Positions 10,648 through 20,274 of a stretch of 64,000 nucleotides of DNA are shown here, one piece after another. Below the pieces are notes generated by a model that saw nothing but the letters and a program-made list of their open reading frames with translations, was not told where the DNA came from and made no database searches. The stretch is from Candidatus Woesearchaeota archaeon CG10_big_fil_rev_8_21_14_0_10_45_16 (lineage in GTDB: Archaea; Nanobdellota; Nanobdellia; Woesearchaeales; GW2011-AR9): assembly GCA_002762785.1 (NCBI GenBank), contig PCXY01000004.1:186001-250000 (forward strand), in the 5' to 3' direction. Both the position numbers and the translations under genes were made by a program. Positions within the stretch are counted from its first letter, which is position 1; every line of letters starts with the position of its first letter.

Positions 10648-11840
10648 AAGCCAAAACTTTTTTAAATCAGCCTTCTGATTTCAAGCGTATGTTAACACCG
10701 GAAGCTAAAGCAGAACTGGAAAAACAGCAGTACAGGATCGTCGGCAGCCATTCCGCCGTCAAGACCTGCGGCTGGACCAAGAACATGATCAACGGGGAAG
10801 GTGGCTGCTACAAGCTGAAATTCTATGGGATCATGAGCAACCAGTGCATGCAGATGACCACGTCCATTAGCTGCGCCAATAGGTGTACTTTCTGCTGGCG
10901 GGGATATAAAGCGCCGGTCTCCAAAGAATGGAAATGGGACGTTGACGACCCTGAGATGATCCTCAAAGGATCGTTGGAAGCCCATCACAAGCTGCTGATC
11001 GGTTTCAAAGGATCGCCCAAATCAAACAAAAGAGCTTATGAGGTCTCTAAAGACGTCAAGCACGTTGCTCTTTCATTGACGGGAGAACCGATAACCTATC
11101 CGAGGATGAACGAACTCATCGACAAGTTCCATGCTCAGGGGATATCTACTTTTCTGGTAACCAATGCTCAATATGATGAGCATATCAAAAATCTCAGACC
11201 GATCACCCAGCTATACTTAAGCATCGATGCTCCCAACAAAGAACTGTTGAAAGAGGTCGACAAGCCTTTATTCACCGATTACTGGGAGCGCATGAACAAT
11301 AGTTTAGATAATCTTTCCCAGAGAAAAGAACGGACCTGCCTGCGGTTGACCATGATAAAAAACGTCAACATGATGGAACCGGAGAATTATGCTAAGCTGA
11401 TCATGAAAGGCAGTCCTGACTTCATCGAAGTCAAGGCGTACATGCACGTTGGTCCTTCGCAGAACAGACTGAGCCGGGAAAACATGCCCCTGCATGAGGA
11501 GGTGGTCGTCTTCTCTAAAATATTAGAAAAGAATCTTCCTGATTATGAGATCGTCTCTGAACATATCTCTTCAAGGGTTGTCATGTTCGCTAAGAAAAAA
11601 TGGAAAAAAGACGGCGTCTGGCATACCTGGATCGACTTTGAGAAATTTGCCGAGCTTTCAACTTCTGGAAAAGATTTCACTGCCGATGATTATTACAAGA
11701 AGACTCCGCAGGTCGGCTTATCTGGAAAAGGAACCTTAGACAACATGCCGGCCGATAAACGTGAGAAATATCTGAAAGAGCATCCGGAAGCTTACGTGTT
11801 TGTGGACGAGAAGACGGATGAATTAAGTTTCTATGGTTAG
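10644..11840 (+). CDS. taw1: tRNA 4-demethylwyosine synthase (radical SAM)
   Basis: TYW1/Taw1 builds the tricyclic base at G37 of tRNA-Phe from N1-methylguanosine and pyruvate. The radical SAM CX3CX2C is C77, C81, C84 (CANRCTFCWRG). WRGYKAPVSKEWKWDDP and the LVTNAQ and LSIDAP strands are typical. The GTG start overlaps the upstream gene. At 398 residues it is somewhat longer than many archaeal homologues because of a C-terminal extension. It ends in a 4-base tail-to-tail overlap with the next gene. Confidence 0.92.
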   Translation: MKAKTFLNQPSDFKRMLTPEAKAELEKQQYRIVGSHSAVKTCGWTKNMINGEGGCYKLKFYGIMSNQCMQMTTSISCANRCTFCWRGYKAPVSKEWKWDVDDPEMILKGSLEAHHKLLIGFKGSPKSNKRAYEVSKDVKHVALSLTGEPITYPRMNELIDKFHAQGISTFLVTNAQYDEHIKNLRPITQLYLSIDAPNKELLKEVDKPLFTDYWERMNNSLDNLSQRKERTCLRLTMIKNVNMMEPENYAKLIMKGSPDFIEVKAYMHVGPSQNRLSRENMPLHEEVVVFSKILEKNLPDYEIVSEHISSRVVMFAKKKWKKDGVWHTWIDFEKFAELSTSGKDFTADDYYKKTPQVGLSGKGTLDNMPADKREKYLKEHPEAYVFVDEKTDELSFYG

Positions 11841-13267
11841 ATTATCTGTGACGAGCCGGCATTGCTTCTGTGGTCGTGAGCGGCTTCTACTTTAAGCAGC
11901 CTATTGTCTTTGATAAATCCAGCTGTGAGGACGGCATTAGGGTCTTCACCACGTTCGATAGCTTTTGCCGCTTCAGCCATAAGGAAGTTGATATAGACGA
12001 TTGAAGTCTTATCACTCAGCCGGCCCATCCTTTTAAAACCGCGTGGATCAGCGTTAGTGACGATAACATCTTCTATTCGAGGATTTGAAAGGACTCCTAC
12101 TGATTCTCCTCCGAAATTGGTCCTTGTGGTGATGACTGAAACTTTATTGGGTGTACCTCTGATCCTTGGGTCACGAGATAAGCCTTCAAGCGTGATTCCA
12201 TAGAGAACATCGATGTTGCTGCTCATGGTCTTTCCTGAGCGGATCATGTCATCAACTATGACAATGTCCATGCCTTCTATTCCCCTTTCTGTAGTAAGTC
12301 CTTCCGCTTCTTCCAGACGCAGCAATTCTATGGCTCCGCCGTCTGCTGATTTCATCTTGGACATTATCGCCTGGTTGACATCTGATAACCCGGTACTTCT
12401 TGCGATCTCTCTAACATAAGGAAGGATTCCTGCATCAGGACCCATTATGATCAGATTCTTTCCATTATCGGAAGTGTTGAACTGTGGTCCGCCTGGTGCG
12501 TTTCCTAACAGGAGCATGGCCACGACCGGCGCGAGACTAACATTATAAAAACTAAGTTTGTAACGCATGGTAGATCGGTTTTCTCTACTGACCTGGTTCA
12601 TCGGCGCCAGCTCTTCATTGACAATATCACACAATGTTGCAGCTGCTCTTGGATCGTGACAAGACGGCGTGACGATAGCGTCAACACCGGCAACCGCCAA
12701 TTGTTTTAATGAATCGTATAAAGCGTGAGGTTCTCCCTCTATAGAATAGCGCGCTTTATCTGTCTGAAGTCGCGGATGTTCTTTGTCATGTATCCCCCTT
12801 TCCTGAGCTTCGTTGTCTAAAGTAAAAGCGAGAAGGACCACACTTTCAGCGCCATGATACTTTGCGTTGCTGGCGATCTTCTGTACTCTGGAAGCTAGAT
12901 CGTTATTGGAAAGATTATTGCTGAGAGTATGGACAAGATATACTGTTCTTCCTCTAAGACTTTGTCCCCAGGATCTACTACCGTCAGGACCTTGATAATT
13001 ATCTGCATATCTTTTGAATCTACCATCCCCTTCAAGAATCTGTTTCATGTTCCATCTGGGCATGTATTCGCCATTTTGCCAAACTTGGTGTTGTATTATG
13101 ATAGAAGGTTGTTCTGGAGAAACACCAAGATGTTTTGCCACCCGTCGTGGTTCGCTGGGATCATTTTTGGGATCGAAAGCGCCACCCCTTGTCCCGACAA
13201 CTACTCTTTCTCCAGGTTCTAATTGTCTTTCACCGAGATTATAACTGGCTTTATGTGATACATATGG
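11837..13267 (-). CDS. Divergent, long ribose-phosphate pyrophosphokinase-like protein
   Basis: PRPP synthases transfer pyrophosphate from ATP to ribose 5-phosphate. The PRPP-binding loop is recognisable as VIVDDMIRSGKTM, preceded by a phosphoribosyltransferase fold with MGPDAGILPYVREIA and followed by ITTRTNF. The N-terminal half has the matching segment (VYLVHTLSNNLSNNDL, SVVLLAFT). The protein is about 476 residues against 285-320 for the family, with long loops and an extra N-terminal segment, so another PRTase-type activity is possible. I chose ATG 13267, which fits a TATA-like box near 13298; ATG 13279 is also in frame. Confidence 0.65.
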   Translation of the reverse strand, partial: PYVSHKASYNLGERQLEPGERVVVGTRGGAFDPKNDPSEPRRVAKHLGVSPEQPSIIIQHQVWQNGEYMPRWNMKQILEGDGRFKRYADNYQGPDGSRSWGQSLRGRTVYLVHTLSNNLSNNDLASRVQKIASNAKYHGAESVVLLAFTLDNEAQERGIHDKEHPRLQTDKARYSIEGEPHALYDSLKQLAVAGVDAIVTPSCHDPRAAATLCDIVNEELAPMNQVSRENRSTMRYKLSFYNVSLAPVVAMLLLGNAPGGPQFNTSDNGKNLIIMGPDAGILPYVREIARSTGLSDVNQAIMSKMKSADGGAIELLRLEEAEGLTTERGIEGMDIVIVDDMIRSGKTMSSNIDVLYGITLEGLSRDPRIRGTPNKVSVITTRTNFGGESVGVLSNPRIEDVIVTNADPRGFKRMGRLSDKTSIVYINFLMAEAAKAIERGEDPNAVLTAGFIKDNRLLKVEAAHDHRSNAGSSQII

Positions 13268-13324
13268 CATGAGCCACAAAAAACGGCAAGGCTTTTTATT
13301 TATTTCCCATTTAAATCATATCTA

Positions 13325-13544: not shown

Positions 13545-13751
13545 ATGGAACTCACAAAACAGGATAAAGCGGTCTTAAAGGTGCTTGTCGGTAAAGAGAT
13601 GGAGCATCTGAAGAAGGATTTTAAGCAATTGGTCATCAGCAATTCTCCCTTCCTTAATAAGGTAGCAGGAGACCAGTCAGACTTGGCTTTCCTTAAGAGC
13701 GAAGCTGAATATCATAAGTATCTTCAAACATTGGTGAGAAAATTAGTATGA
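13545..13751 (+). CDS. Small conserved-looking helical protein upstream of prefoldin
   Basis: The 68-residue, Lys-rich, helical protein is not one I recognise. A TATA-like TTATAAAA about 27 bases upstream of the ATG indicates a leaderless message. Its stop overlaps the prefoldin alpha start (ATGA), so it heads the operon with prefoldin and FtsY. In other archaea the gene in this position is often the ribosomal protein LX; this sequence does not look like LX. Confidence 0.65.
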   Translation: MELTKQDKAVLKVLVGKEMEHLKKDFKQLVISNSPFLNKVAGDQSDLAFLKSEAEYHKYLQTLVRKLV

Positions 13752-14146
13752 ACGTCCAAGAACAGCTGATGCAGTTCCAGATGCTGCAGGGACAGATCGA
13801 ACAGATCACTGAACACGTCCAGCTGCTGAACCAGCAGATGCAGGAACTGGATGCCTCCAAGACAGCCTTGCAGGATCTTGCTTTATCAGAAGCCAAGTCT
13901 GAGATGCTGGCTCCCGTTGCCAACGGCATCTTTGTCAAAGCTACTTTGCAGGATACTCAGAAACTGCTGGTCAATGTCGGCGCCGGCACTGTCGTGGAAA
14001 AGACTGTGGAAGAAGTGATCAACTTATTGAAACAGCAGGAAGAAGAGATGAGTTCCAAGATCATGGAAGCGGAAGGCTTCATGCAGCACCTTCATCAGAA
14101 AGCCTATGAGATCTACAAGCAGGTAGAGGAGCATGTTGAGGAATAA
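13748..14146 (+). CDS. pfdA: Prefoldin alpha subunit
   Basis: Prefoldin is a hexameric chaperone that hands unfolded proteins to the thermosome. The 132-residue protein has the expected coiled coil (1-45), a central beta hairpin region (APVANGIFVKATL, VNVGAGTVVEKTVEE) and a second coiled coil (90-132). It is followed directly by ftsY (1-base overlap), the usual archaeal neighbour. Confidence 0.92.
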   Translation: MNVQEQLMQFQMLQGQIEQITEHVQLLNQQMQELDASKTALQDLALSEAKSEMLAPVANGIFVKATLQDTQKLLVNVGAGTVVEKTVEEVINLLKQQEEEMSSKIMEAEGFMQHLHQKAYEIYKQVEEHVEE

Positions 14147-16332
14147 TGTTCGGCAGACTGAAAGACAAGCTGAAAGGCGCTTTATCGGTGTTTTCTAAGA
14201 AGACGGAAGAAGTAGCTGAAGAGATCAAAGAGGAACTTGAAGAAAAATCTGATGAAGTTTCTGAGGATATTGAAGAGCCTAAAGAAGAGCCTGTTGTTGA
14301 AGAAAAGGCTGAAGTAGAAAAAGTTACTGAGTTATTGGAAGAAACTCCCGTCCCCAAAGACATCCCTACTGCGGAAGAACTGATCGAAGCGACCAAAAAG
14401 GAATTCAAAGAGAAAAAACCGAAGAAGAAGAAAGAGCCATTCGCCGAGAAGATAGTTGAGGAGACGAAGGAAGTTCTTGAGACGATCCCTGAAGCGCCAA
14501 AGGAAGAAGAAAAAGTAGAAGTTCCTGCGGCTAAAGAGGAGAAGACTGAAAAGGAAAAGATCAAAGGGGTCAAGATCACTTATTTTGTCCATGGCACAAC
14601 TACCGACAATGAGCAGGATATCGCCACCGGCTGGAATCCCGGAGAATTATCTGAGTTAGGTGAGAAACAAGCTAAAGATCTACATAAGTATGATGCTGAT
14701 TTTGAAGTAGTTTTCTGTTCTGATCTTAAAAGAGCTATCCAGTCAGCTAATCTCGGTTTCAAAGGGATGGTCATCCAGGATGAGAAACTAAGAGAATGTA
14801 ATTATGGTAAATGGAATGGCAAGAAGAAAGACTGGGAGATTATCGATTACGTTGAAAAACGCTATCCTGAAGGGGAAAGCTATCATGACGTGGAAAGACG
14901 GATGGCTGAGTTCATTAACTATCTTTATGATAATTACTATGGCCAGCATATTGCTATCGTCGCGCATCAGGCTCCGCAGCTGGCTTTAGAAGTTCTTCTG
15001 AATGGAAAAACCTGGAAAGCGGCTATCACTGAAGATTGGCGCGGCAAGAAAGCCTGGCAGCCGGGCTGGGAATATGTCATCGAAGAAAAAGTAGAAGTTC
15101 CTGCGGCTAAAGAGGAGAAGAAAGGTTTCTTCGGGAAATTATTCGGTAAGAAGAAAGAGGAAGCTGTCGAAGAGAAAGTTTTTGAGGATGAAAAAGCTGT
15201 AGAAAAAATTACTGAAAAAGAAGTCATCCCTGAAACCAAGAAGGTTGTTGAGAAGACAGAAGAAAAGATTGTCGAGAATAAACCAGAACTTAAAGAAAAG
15301 ACTGTTCCCACAGTTGAAAAGAAAGAAAAAGCTGTTGAGACTAAAGAAAAATCGGTTATAGAAGGAAAAGCTGTCGAAATCAAGGAGAGACCAGTTATTG
15401 GGGAGAAAAAAGAATCTCCTAAGAGAGAAGAGAAAGTTGCCGAAAAACCTAAAGAAGGACAGAAGAGCTTCTTCGGCAAGATCAAGCAGTCATTCACGAC
15501 CAAGACCATCTCTGCTGAGAAGTTCGAAGAACTGTTCTGGGATCTGGAACTGATCTTGTTAGAGAATAACGTTTCTGTCGAAGTAATCGACAAGATCAAA
15601 GAAGATCTGAAAGAAGAGCTGGTCGACAAACCACTGCCGAGGGATGTCTTGGCTAAGATCGAAGAAACGTTAGAAAGAACTCTGAGAGAAATATTATCTT
15701 ATGAAAAGATCGACCTTATCGAGAAAGTCAGCCAGAAACAGCCGTACGTTATCGCCTTCTTCGGTATCAACGGAGCAGGAAAAACTACATCGATCGCCAA
15801 GCTGGCCCATTATTTCCGGCAGAACCATAAGTCGGTCGTGTTAGCTGCCTGCGATACTTTCAGAGCAGCCGCCATCCAGCAGTTGGAAGAGCACGCCAAT
15901 AAGCTGGGCGTGAAGATGATCAAGCATGATTACGGTTCTGATGCTGCGGCTGTAGCTTATGATGCTATCCAGTATGCCCAGAAGAATGATGTTGAAGTTG
16001 TTCTGATAGACACGGCAGGAAGGCTGCATTCCAACACCAACCTGATGGCCGAACTGGAGAAGATCATCCGTGTTACCAAACCGGACCTGAAAATCTTTGT
16101 CGGTGAATCCATCACCGGAAATGACTGTATCGAACAGGCCCGGAAGTTCAACGAGCTGGTGGAGATGGACGGCGCTATCCTTACTAAAGCAGATGTAGAT
16201 GAGAAAGGCGGTGCGCCGTTGTCGATATCATATACTATCAAGAAGCCGATCTTATTTCTGGGAGTGGGCCAGGAATATAAAGATCTGGAACAGTTCGATG
16301 CCGAGACAATCATCAAAAGATTGGGATTTTGA
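14146..16332 (+). CDS. ftsY: SRP receptor FtsY with an inserted histidine-phosphatase domain
   Basis: FtsY is the membrane-bound receptor GTPase of the signal recognition particle. The order is: basic amphipathic N-terminus (1-20), acidic linker (21-135), a histidine-phosphatase/phosphoglycerate-mutase fold domain (about 143-311), a second acidic/Lys-rich linker (313-440) and the NG GTPase domain (about 441-728). GTPase motifs are intact: GINGAGKTT (540-548), DTAGR (622-626), TKAD (680-683). In the inserted domain His149, Arg196, Glu217 and His274 are kept, but the Arg of the usual RHG is missing. A perfect 39-bp repeat encoding the same 13 residues (121-133 and 313-325) flanks the domain. 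Typical FtsY has no such insert. Confidence 0.92.
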   Translation: MFGRLKDKLKGALSVFSKKTEEVAEEIKEELEEKSDEVSEDIEEPKEEPVVEEKAEVEKVTELLEETPVPKDIPTAEELIEATKKEFKEKKPKKKKEPFAEKIVEETKEVLETIPEAPKEEEKVEVPAAKEEKTEKEKIKGVKITYFVHGTTTDNEQDIATGWNPGELSELGEKQAKDLHKYDADFEVVFCSDLKRAIQSANLGFKGMVIQDEKLRECNYGKWNGKKKDWEIIDYVEKRYPEGESYHDVERRMAEFINYLYDNYYGQHIAIVAHQAPQLALEVLLNGKTWKAAITEDWRGKKAWQPGWEYVIEEKVEVPAAKEEKKGFFGKLFGKKKEEAVEEKVFEDEKAVEKITEKEVIPETKKVVEKTEEKIVENKPELKEKTVPTVEKKEKAVETKEKSVIEGKAVEIKERPVIGEKKESPKREEKVAEKPKEGQKSFFGKIKQSFTTKTISAEKFEELFWDLELILLENNVSVEVIDKIKEDLKEELVDKPLPRDVLAKIEETLERTLREILSYEKIDLIEKVSQKQPYVIAFFGINGAGKTTSIAKLAHYFRQNHKSVVLAACDTFRAAAIQQLEEHANKLGVKMIKHDYGSDAAAVAYDAIQYAQKNDVEVVLIDTAGRLHSNTNLMAELEKIIRVTKPDLKIFVGESITGNDCIEQARKFNELVEMDGAILTKADVDEKGGAPLSISYTIKKPILFLGVGQEYKDLEQFDAETIIKRLGF
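14506..14544. repeat. 39-bp direct repeat, left copy, inside ftsY
   Basis: Identical over 39 bases to 15082-15120 and in the same reading frame (576 bases, 192 codons apart). It encodes EEKVEVPAAKEEK immediately before the histidine-phosphatase domain. Confidence 0.95.
15082..15120. repeat. 39-bp direct repeat, right copy, inside ftsY
   Basis: Identical to 14506-14544. It encodes EEKVEVPAAKEEK directly after the histidine-phosphatase domain. Recombination between the two copies would remove the domain precisely and in frame. Confidence 0.95.
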
Positions 16333-16399: not shown

Positions 16400-16933
16400 A
16401 TGTCTCAAGAGATCGTTACCATTTTCGACGGGGGATTATCTTTCGTCGCTGGCATGAACTATAGTCCTGAACGTCTGGTTCTTAAAGTATCACATGGCGA
16501 TACACCATATGTGCTCAAAGCCTTTCCTTCTGATAACCCTTATTTCAACGAGCACATTGATGGAGAAGTAAGAGCGTTAACGATTGCCCAAAGTCTCGAT
16601 GGGATAACAAAGCTTGTCAATGATTACGGTTCTCAGGGCGGTTTTAGAGCCATCCTGAAGGAATACCGTCAGGGGCAGGATCTTTATCAACGAGGACCAG
16701 TTGCAATCTCCTCCTCACTACAACAGCGATTGAGAGATACTGTCGCAAAACTTCATAAGTTTAGTTTATGTGATCTGGACATCAGTCCCAAGAATGTTGT
16801 GATCACACCAGATGATGAAGACGCAGTTCTGATTGACTTGGGATCTGCTAAACATCGATCGGTCGTTTCAAGAGATGGTTTTCAGTTAGGGAAAGCTAAA
16901 GACCGAGCGTATTTAGAGGGGTTGTTCACTTAA
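16400..16933 (+). CDS. Minimal protein-kinase-fold protein
   Basis: At 177 residues this is a compact kinase-like fold, related in style to RIO/APH kinases. Visible are VLK (Lys40), a helix-C Glu (Glu56, GEVRAL), the catalytic loop LDISPKN (Asp127, Asn132) and the DFG-equivalent IDLGSA (Asp146). There is almost no C-lobe beyond that. All key residues are present, so it could be active, for example on a small molecule. A catalytically altered paralogue of the same size lies at 19735-20274. Confidence 0.7.
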   Translation: MSQEIVTIFDGGLSFVAGMNYSPERLVLKVSHGDTPYVLKAFPSDNPYFNEHIDGEVRALTIAQSLDGITKLVNDYGSQGGFRAILKEYRQGQDLYQRGPVAISSSLQQRLRDTVAKLHKFSLCDLDISPKNVVITPDDEDAVLIDLGSAKHRSVVSRDGFQLGKAKDRAYLEGLFT

Positions 16934-17911: not shown

Positions 17912-17961
17912 CACTTCTTAGTGGTAAATTATTTAAAGCCCTCTCTTTTTTGCTGTTTGAT

Positions 17962-19245
17962 ATGACTAAATTTACTTTAACAGCTTTGGTACTGGCGGCC
18001 TTGCCTTCCATCTCGCAAGCGCGTCAACCACCGGAACGAGAGATACAACTGCCTGTCCCTCTCACCTGCGAAGACGACAGCTGTCTGCCGTATGTTGTAG
18101 GAACAGCTCTTGGTGATGTTTATGCTTTGACTGGGGCTGTTTTTGATAGGACTGAGACGCCCACTTCGCTTTCTCGATTTGGAATGGTTCTTGCTTTAGG
18201 AACCGTCAATGGTTACTTTACCGGATCTGCTCATGAGTTTGTGCATGGCATTGAGGATGACAATAAACAGCTTGGCTTTAACGGTTTTGGAGGAATTTTT
18301 TTGGACTATCGGGGCTCTCCTTCTGAAGACTATCTCATCAATGAGGTTATTACCAGAAGTTCCAGGTCATTGATCTTTCAGGATGGTCTTGCAAGGGGAC
18401 TTCTTAGATATGCCGTTGCTGAACCTAAAGACATTGATGATGCTATAAATTTCCTGACAAATGCTTTGTCCTCACCGATATACTCTGCTTTTTGTCTTGT
18501 CAATGGTCTTGATCTGGAGATCAAAAACTACAAAGATCTTGATCGGGGCTTAAGGAGTACCTGTGATGTTAAAGGTTGGGAGACAGGGATAAACATGAAG
18601 TACAGCGAACCAGAACTGGTCATCCCAAACGGCATAGTTCTCTTTAACGAGTATGACCTGTTTCATGTTGCTGATGCGGAGCAGGCGGCTGCTTTAGACC
18701 TTGCTCTTGCCTCTGCTAATCTTGAGACGATCAATGCCGTCCTGGAGATCATCGATTACGTCAGGACTAGCGACCGAAGTTATCATCCGCTCTTGTTCAA
18801 TGTGGGTGGTGTTGAATTCACTCCGCCATATTTCAGCTTTGACTTCACACCGCATGGTGCAGCTGTCCGCGGCGGCGTTGTCTTTAAAGTAGCTGAAGGA
18901 ACGACGGCTACGCTTGACATCATGTCAACTCCTGATGCGCTTGATTTCAAGCTCGGTCCTGGTCATGCTCACCGGCAAGGTCTCTCTGTCGATGGTATTC
19001 CACTGTACGAAGGGAGTTTCTCCGTCAAGGGCAGTGTTTCCGCGGCGATTTCCGAATACCTGCCAGGCAGCGGCAACTCTGATCACGTCGGCTATGAGCT
19101 AGAGGCAGAAGTAAAAGTTGATGTTGGCGATTTTTCCATAGTTCCTGAAGTAACAGTTTCACAGAACGACTTGCCTTATTCAGTTCTTACTTATGATCCC
19201 GGTCTTGCGGTCAATCCCTTCCTGACTTTTGGCTACAAACTATAG
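17962..19245 (+). CDS. Secreted protein with HExxH motif and beta-rich C-terminal half
   Basis: I do not recognise this family. ATG 17962 gives a signal peptide (ending ...SISQA) and sits about 26 bases after a TATA-like box. The N-terminal half is helical and contains HEFVH (SAHEFVHGI), a possible zinc-metalloprotease site, within an otherwise hydrophobic helix. The C-terminal half (about 280-427) alternates polar and non-polar residues in beta-strand fashion (VRGGVVFKVAEGTTATLDI, GYELEAEVKVDV) and ends LTFGYKL, recalling beta-barrel or adhesin-like domains. Archaea generally lack an outer membrane, so a surface enzyme is more likely than a porin. Confidence 0.65.
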   Translation: MTKFTLTALVLAALPSISQARQPPEREIQLPVPLTCEDDSCLPYVVGTALGDVYALTGAVFDRTETPTSLSRFGMVLALGTVNGYFTGSAHEFVHGIEDDNKQLGFNGFGGIFLDYRGSPSEDYLINEVITRSSRSLIFQDGLARGLLRYAVAEPKDIDDAINFLTNALSSPIYSAFCLVNGLDLEIKNYKDLDRGLRSTCDVKGWETGINMKYSEPELVIPNGIVLFNEYDLFHVADAEQAAALDLALASANLETINAVLEIIDYVRTSDRSYHPLLFNVGGVEFTPPYFSFDFTPHGAAVRGGVVFKVAEGTTATLDIMSTPDALDFKLGPGHAHRQGLSVDGIPLYEGSFSVKGSVSAAISEYLPGSGNSDHVGYELEAEVKVDVGDFSIVPEVTVSQNDLPYSVLTYDPGLAVNPFLTFGYKL

Positions 19246-19734: not shown

Positions 19735-20274
19735 ATGCAAACTTATCATGAAGTTGTAGAAGAGATCAATCCAGCTTTAGTTCTCGTGGGAAGTCTGAGT
19801 TCTCCTCAGTCCTCTACTCCGGCCTATAAAGTGATGGGTCCTGAGGGCGCTTTAGTCCTAAAAGTTTTTCCCGAAATTGAGATGCCGCAATTGCGTCGTT
19901 GGGCCAATTTTCATAGAGATATTGAAGGGCACCATAATGTTCTTGACGGCAATAAATTACCGGGTTTGGCCGGGATCATCGGAATCTACCAATCTTCTGA
20001 GCAATGTGTTCTTCTGAGGCCATATGTTTATGGTACAATGATTGAAAGGTCAGCCCTTCCGAATCTTCGGGATGATCTTGAAAAAACTATTGGGGTGATC
20101 CATGAAGCTGGTTTCTCCGGCATTACACTCTCTCGTCGGAATATCATTGTCGGTCCTGCTCAAGATGATGCTACTTTAGTAGACCTTGACTATACCTACA
20201 CTAAGGGCATGAAAAGTTTCAACGCTGGAAAAGTAAGGGACAAGATTTCTATCAATAGGCTATTCTCAAAATAA
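19735..20274 (+). CDS. Kinase-fold protein with altered catalytic loop (pseudokinase)
   Basis: This 179-residue protein is a paralogue of the 16400-16933 mini-kinase. The Lys strand (LVLKVF, Lys43), Glu64, Asn136 (SRRNIIV) and the metal-binding Asp150 (LVDLDY) are kept, but the catalytic Asp position holds Thr131 (GITLSRRN). It probably binds nucleotide without normal phosphotransfer, perhaps regulating its active relative. Confidence 0.6.
   Translation: MQTYHEVVEEINPALVLVGSLSSPQSSTPAYKVMGPEGALVLKVFPEIEMPQLRRWANFHRDIEGHHNVLDGNKLPGLAGIIGIYQSSEQCVLLRPYVYGTMIERSALPNLRDDLEKTIGVIHEAGFSGITLSRRNIIVGPAQDDATLVDLDYTYTKGMKSFNAGKVRDKISINRLFSK

Follow-up and report, generated by a model that had tools for sequence, protein, structure and literature searches.

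A histidine-phosphatase-fold domain in the linker of a woesearchaeal SRP receptor FtsY, and the gain and loss of enzyme domains at this site

FtsY proteins of archaea and bacteria share an NG core with its GTPase motifs, a basic N-terminal helix and a charged, variable A region. According to the accessible part of a review (PMC2905702), the A region of archaeal FtsY is strikingly diverse, or absent within subgroups. The FtsY described here is encoded in a window of 64,000 nucleotides (the whole stretch of DNA analysed) from Candidatus Woesearchaeota archaeon CG10_big_fil_rev_8_21_14_0_10_45_16. It has the same core, GTPase motifs, helix and charged region, but its A region differs in containing a folded enzyme, a histidine-phosphatase (HP) domain. 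Among the titles and opening abstract lines of the open-access papers searched, no report of an enzyme inside FtsY or of the HP subfamily with the motif VHGTT was found. The same linker holds an enzyme in relatives' FtsYs with PF06821, PF00293 or HD/HDIG domains, although these enzyme families are unrelated to HP.

In known HP members the Arg of the RHG motif is a phosphate ligand. The branch-1 enzymes PspA, PhoE/YhfR and CobC have the fold of the window HP (Z about 20–22) and likewise both histidines, the second arginine and the glutamate. The window HP is 23–27% identical to them and differs in three respects: Val substitutes for the RHG Arg, HG is followed by TT, and a conserved DWRxKKxWQPGWxY motif is added at the C-terminus. 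Most stand-alone VHGTT HPs of DPANN archaea and Patescibacteria are ~50–70% identical to it over the whole domain and have the same invariant residues, but they are free proteins of ~180 aa, unlike the FtsY-borne copy. The acid-phosphatase-like binders of flea saliva are HP relatives that have lost active-site residues, as the window HP lacks the RHG Arg. In those ligand binders the catalytic histidines are lost and activity was shown to be absent, as stated in the accessible part of the report (PMC10728186), whereas the window HP keeps both histidines.

The gene lies on the forward strand at 14146–16332 as one ORF of 728 aa, an FtsY with an HP insert. The protein passed the FtsY model TIGR00064 (315.7 bits, cut-off 260.7) and contains the Pfam domains SRP54_N and SRP54. 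Its NG core (15460–16329, +; Pfam, TIGR00064 and the model) carries GINGAGKTTS, DTFRAAA, DTAGR, TKAD and GGAP, and the GTPase motifs and the N-domain helical bundle are intact by Pfam, the AlphaFold2 model and motif reading. It is the sole FtsY over the family cut-off in the source genome (98% complete, 1.18 Mb, six contigs), which leaves the fused protein as the one that has to act as SRP receptor. A prefoldin subunit gene (13748–14146, +; ORF and Pfam) is located directly 5' and overlaps the ftsY start by one base.

The protein begins with an AlphaFold2-predicted helix (14146–14214, +; aa 2–23), which is basic and amphipathic (moment 0.57, charge +4 for aa 1–18) and is the presumed membrane anchor, a role taken from the FtsY literature. 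A charged linker (14215–14565, +), mostly predicted to be disordered (pLDDT mostly <50), leads to the HP domain (14566–15081, +; aa 141–312; Pfam, fold and alignment). The second charged linker (15122–15459, +), also predicted to be disordered, starts with the short basic motif KKGFFGKLF, which recurs in relatives. In the full-length AlphaFold2 model the HP domain and the NG core are confident, residues 2–23 are helical and both linkers are mostly below pLDDT 50.

Several other ORFs were noted in the window. The short ORFs at 16400–16933 and 19735–20274 are similar in size and contain kinase-like stretches (CDLDISPKNVVI; GITLSRRNIIV), with no Pfam match at 0.001. A 480-aa phosphoribosyltransferase/PRPP-synthetase-like protein with weak Pfam matches is encoded at 11840–13279 (−), and a 431-aa ORF with no Pfam match (17950–19245) adjoins a dihydrodipicolinate synthase gene.

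The HP fold inside the linker, first proposed from the letters of the sequence, was borne out as a foreign and self-contained domain. PF00300 matches aa 149–280 (E 1.4e-25), and the AlphaFold2 model of the domain, built with 57 sequences, has pLDDT 94.5 and pTM 0.90. The best fold matches of this model are branch-1 enzymes: phosphoserine phosphatase PspA (4ij6/4ij5, Z 21.7/21.4, 168 residues), followed by PhoE (1ebb, Z 20.8) and CobC (6nru, Z 19.7). Both the PF00300 match and the fold place the window HP in branch 1. The catalytic core His149, Arg196, Glu217 and His274 (H9, R56, E77 and H134 of the domain) is kept, in agreement with the first-pass annotation, and the four residues are conserved in 64/64 aligned family members, including 20/20 FtsY-borne and 37/37 stand-alone copies. 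The RHG Arg was described in that annotation as deleted; it is instead substituted throughout the family. Val148 stands opposite the Arg in an ungapped alignment with PhoE, and the position is Val, Ala or Ile in the family and Thr in four actinobacterial relatives, all 64 aligned members being without Arg. The C-terminal motif DWRxKKxWQPGWxY is near-invariant among family members from DPANN archaea and Patescibacteria.

Judged by these motifs, the window HP is assigned to a distinct, divergent HP subfamily (VHGTTxDNE ... DWRxKKxWQPGWxY), which is apparently without an existing name, and it is not claimed as a canonical HP phosphatase. Two specific identities were rejected: CobC/alpha-ribazole phosphatase (TIGR03162, 67.4 bits, cut-off 162.9) and PspA phosphoserine phosphatase (NF045917, 47.1 bits, cut-off 350), the latter being nearest by fold only. 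The source genome also holds a separate, ordinary RHGET-type HP gene with 33% identity to the window HP. At the 50 columns that are ≥95% conserved in stand-alone HPs, the fused copies deviate in 40/1000 cells, versus 1189/2440 at the remaining columns. This low deviation indicates that the fused HP is held to the constraints of the stand-alone enzyme.

Outside its protein hosts, the subfamily is encoded in DPANN archaea and Patescibacteria by a free-standing gene of ~180 aa. Contigs from 84,980 species were scanned and yielded 34 HP loci, 6 in FtsY, 2 in valyl-tRNA synthetase (ValRS) and 26 stand-alone, partial or broken. In 371 genomes of the window's phylum an HP match was present in 41 at E 1e-15, and the 36 places at E ≤1e-40 comprised 12 in FtsY, 1 at a GyrA C-terminus and 23 stand-alone. 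Of 379 genomes sharing the phylum of one Patescibacteria record, 41 matched at E 1e-20, namely 40 short frames and 1 ValRS. In the two ValRS loci, L026 (4855–5388) and L034 (5998–6534), both from Patescibacteria-type records, HP is located between RQIWxGHR and LDTWFSS; the host was confirmed by Pfam for L026 only. The GyrA of a same-class genome (L068, G225:C25, HP at 1293–1835, −) ends in HP after a charged linker, and the stand-alone HP L060 (G061) has a strongly basic tail of ~115 residues. Fused and stand-alone forms did not significantly exclude each other, either among the 40 genomes of the family sample (fused in 8, stand-alone in 8, both in 0; P = 0.14) or in the 371 phylum genomes (fused 12, stand-alone 22; P 0.47).

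No relative of the HP domain was found in viral contigs, and phage matches were partial with at most 37% identity; a viral origin was therefore rejected. Among plasmid matches, 8 of 16 records carry actinobacterial stand-alone relatives (31–39% identity over 98–100% of the domain), and the HP neighbours in the four plasmid records inspected were uninformative. Around stand-alone HPs, Nudix, alpha/beta hydrolase, HAD and GNAT-like genes recur, but no fixed partner emerged among the 24 loci read by eye, so that the substrate is not inferable from gene context. Two stand-alone HPs, L015 from a Patescibacteria record and L016 from a Woesearchaeota record, are near-identical (branch lengths 0.02 and 0.013), which reflects either a recent transfer across domains of life or mis-binning.

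The FtsY linker in this archaeal order repeatedly gains and loses enzyme domains (HP, serine hydrolase, NUDIX and HD), while the GTPase core is near-identical between sisters. In the family sample, FtsY linkers were examined in 38 of the 40 genomes and folded inserts were present in 10: HP in 8, serine hydrolase PF06821 in 3 (two together with HP) and NUDIX PF00293 in 2 (one with HP). An order-wide survey, in which FtsY was detected at E 1e-70 in 174/193 genomes, added at least 2 HP inserts and at least 1 HD/HDIG insert, the latter in another family; these came from 32 further ORFs of ≥560 aa among the matches listed, all screened by composition and 10 read by eye. The FtsY-borne serine hydrolases are 61–68% identical to that of G084, and the remaining copies within these 40 genomes reach at most 30%. 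The position of the insert also varies. The IPxAExLIEA motif is 5' of HP in the window FtsY and 3' of it in G375, and the KKGFF motif follows HP in the window FtsY and precedes it in G034. The insert-free linker of G027 (L123) retains ILAQQREYFEKV, which is like VLAQQMEHFAKV between the serine hydrolase and the HP of its sister G084; this stretch is possibly a scar of lost domains.

Including the window's, 20 HP–FtsY fusions were found in separate genomes, with both domain and core diverged. An FtsY-core tree was built from a non-random sample of 57 cores (37 from the family, 12 fused ones and 8 other long ones chosen by hand), and on it the presence of HP changes about 14 times; for the HP-only group, no fewer than 7 changes are required by its starred branches. 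HP state differs in five well-supported sister pairs (G383/G299, G375/G048, G084/G027, G249/G085 and G810/G095). In the first of these, from genus g24, the cores are identical at 278/292 residues (95%) and HP is present in one only. Alignment of their DNA reveals a clean in-frame insert 663 bp (221 codons) long. A 14-bp stretch recurs at its two ends, exact at one and matching at 12/14 positions at the other, and is single-copy in the empty site. No HP gene of the VHGTT kind was found elsewhere in G299 at E 1e-10.

In the HP tree, from which the truncated L035 and L073 and domains below 150 aa were excluded, the 18 FtsY-borne copies fall in about six places and few deep branches are resolved. 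One origin for all 18 was disfavoured (AU p 0.035; log-likelihood lower by 90). For 16 of them, including the window's, a single old origin was not rejected (AU p 0.44), in a test that leaves out L075 and L092, a split picked post hoc with the tree in view. Two groups, L012/L022/L048 and L011/L028/L070, form matching clades in the HP and FtsY-core trees, which indicates that the fused HP was inherited over long divergence. The HP–FtsY fusion is old and common to several families.

The domain of the window is bracketed by a direct repeat, read in the first-pass annotation as perfect, in frame, 39 bp long and spaced by 192 codons. It is indeed perfect and so spaced (576 bp), but its length is 40 bp (14506–14545 and 15082–15121, both +; repeat search, shuffles and 20-fusion comparison), the upstream copy encoding EEKVEVPAAKEEK. 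When the codons were shuffled 150 times, the longest exact match between the upstream and downstream parts averaged 12.3 bp and never exceeded 21 bp, so the repeat is not due to chance. That it is the trace left when recombination inserted HP into FtsY in the window lineage, as was first supposed from this signature, is improbable. The perfect, in-frame copies end 23 bp before and start 3 bp after the HP domain as cut for flank comparison, and the empty site of genus g24, matching the 14-bp near-repeat (12/14) around HP there, would suit such an event. However, the 40-bp repeat is peculiar to the window among the 20 fusions; the other 19 reach only 9–20 bp, and fused and unfused relatives lack it, an outcome listed as refuting in the first-pass annotation. 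The single old insertion compatible with 16 FtsY-borne HPs, the window's among them, also speaks against this origin. Moreover, the downstream copy resembles HP C-flanks in FtsYs of other families (EEKVKVPEA, EEEVSVPEV and EEEVEVPEI), which makes the flank older than a repeat with zero base divergence. Either copy may be the derived one, since the upstream stretch of G375, the closest fused relative, is partly similar to the upstream copy (EEKVEVKEE). Most simply, the repeat would be a recent or at any rate later product of duplication or homogenisation within the linker, and it would let HP be lost precisely and in frame; states with and without HP do occur in the g24 pair. Perfect repeats are also classic misjoin points in metagenome-type assemblies, but the search in relatives turned up the same fusion in 19 further FtsYs from separate genomes, with diverged domain and core, and an assembly chimera or private artefact is scarcely credible.

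We consider it somewhat probable that the window FtsY is a working SRP receptor that carries a complete HP-fold enzyme as cargo in its disordered linker, and not an SRP regulator. The HP would work on its own as a phosphohydrolase of small molecules, its phosphate pocket being re-shaped, and the N-terminal helix would hold it close to the membrane, although it may be membrane-tethered or merely tolerated cargo. The family-wide loss of the RHG Arg may also mean that the subfamily binds instead of hydrolysing. Tethering by the helix draws on FtsY biology in the accessible parts of PMC2572998 and PMC2905702; work cited in the latter, by which the A domain of Haloferax FtsY is dispensable for membrane binding, counts against the cargo reading. 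A role in regulating protein targeting, suggested in the first-pass annotation, was not supported, with HP coming and going while the FtsY core barely changes. An HP that senses a phosphorylated metabolite or protein phosphate and regulates SRP-dependent targeting would fit the placement between N-terminal helix and NG core in the model, and the absent RHG Arg could favour binding over turnover. Nevertheless, sisters with 95% identical cores differ in HP presence, unrelated hydrolases occupy the same linker and the fused HP retains stand-alone-type constraint, which makes regulation very unlikely. Cargo fits better than SRP regulation, because the constraints of the stand-alone enzyme are kept and HP is absent, replaced or joined by unrelated hydrolases in relatives. 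Capture into the tolerant linker could also be neutral, the disordered segment accepting small soluble enzymes in frame, the enzyme functioning just as a free protein would and the location in FtsY having no function. The inserts differ in kind (HP, serine hydrolase, NUDIX and HD) and in position relative to linker landmarks, HP presence switches often, and ValRS and GyrA, hosts without a common membrane role, carry HP as well, all of which neutral capture would accommodate. It is rather unlikely all the same, as FtsY is by far the commoner host (12/36 strong phylum matches versus 1 GyrA) and fused copies last over family-level divergence in some lineages. That long inheritance fits an FtsY-tied role as well as cargo.

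A broader proposal, put forward tentatively and with less confidence than the cargo reading itself, is that the FtsY linker serves as a cargo dock in this order of DPANN archaea. Small hydrolase genes would shuttle repeatedly between stand-alone and in-frame residence in FtsY (occasionally ValRS or GyrA), without a recognisable mobile element, and the residents would be used as membrane-tethered enzymes beside the protein-export site. The comparison delimits an HP subfamily that is widespread, has an altered phosphate pocket, is common to DPANN archaea and Patescibacteria and is directly assayable, and the sister-species pairs with and without HP are natural experiments. If the dock proposal is true, it would be an unreported route to localise enzymes and to protect genes from loss, and in archaea with reduced genomes an essential, universal targeting GTPase would be a membrane scaffold on which metabolic enzymes are exchanged.
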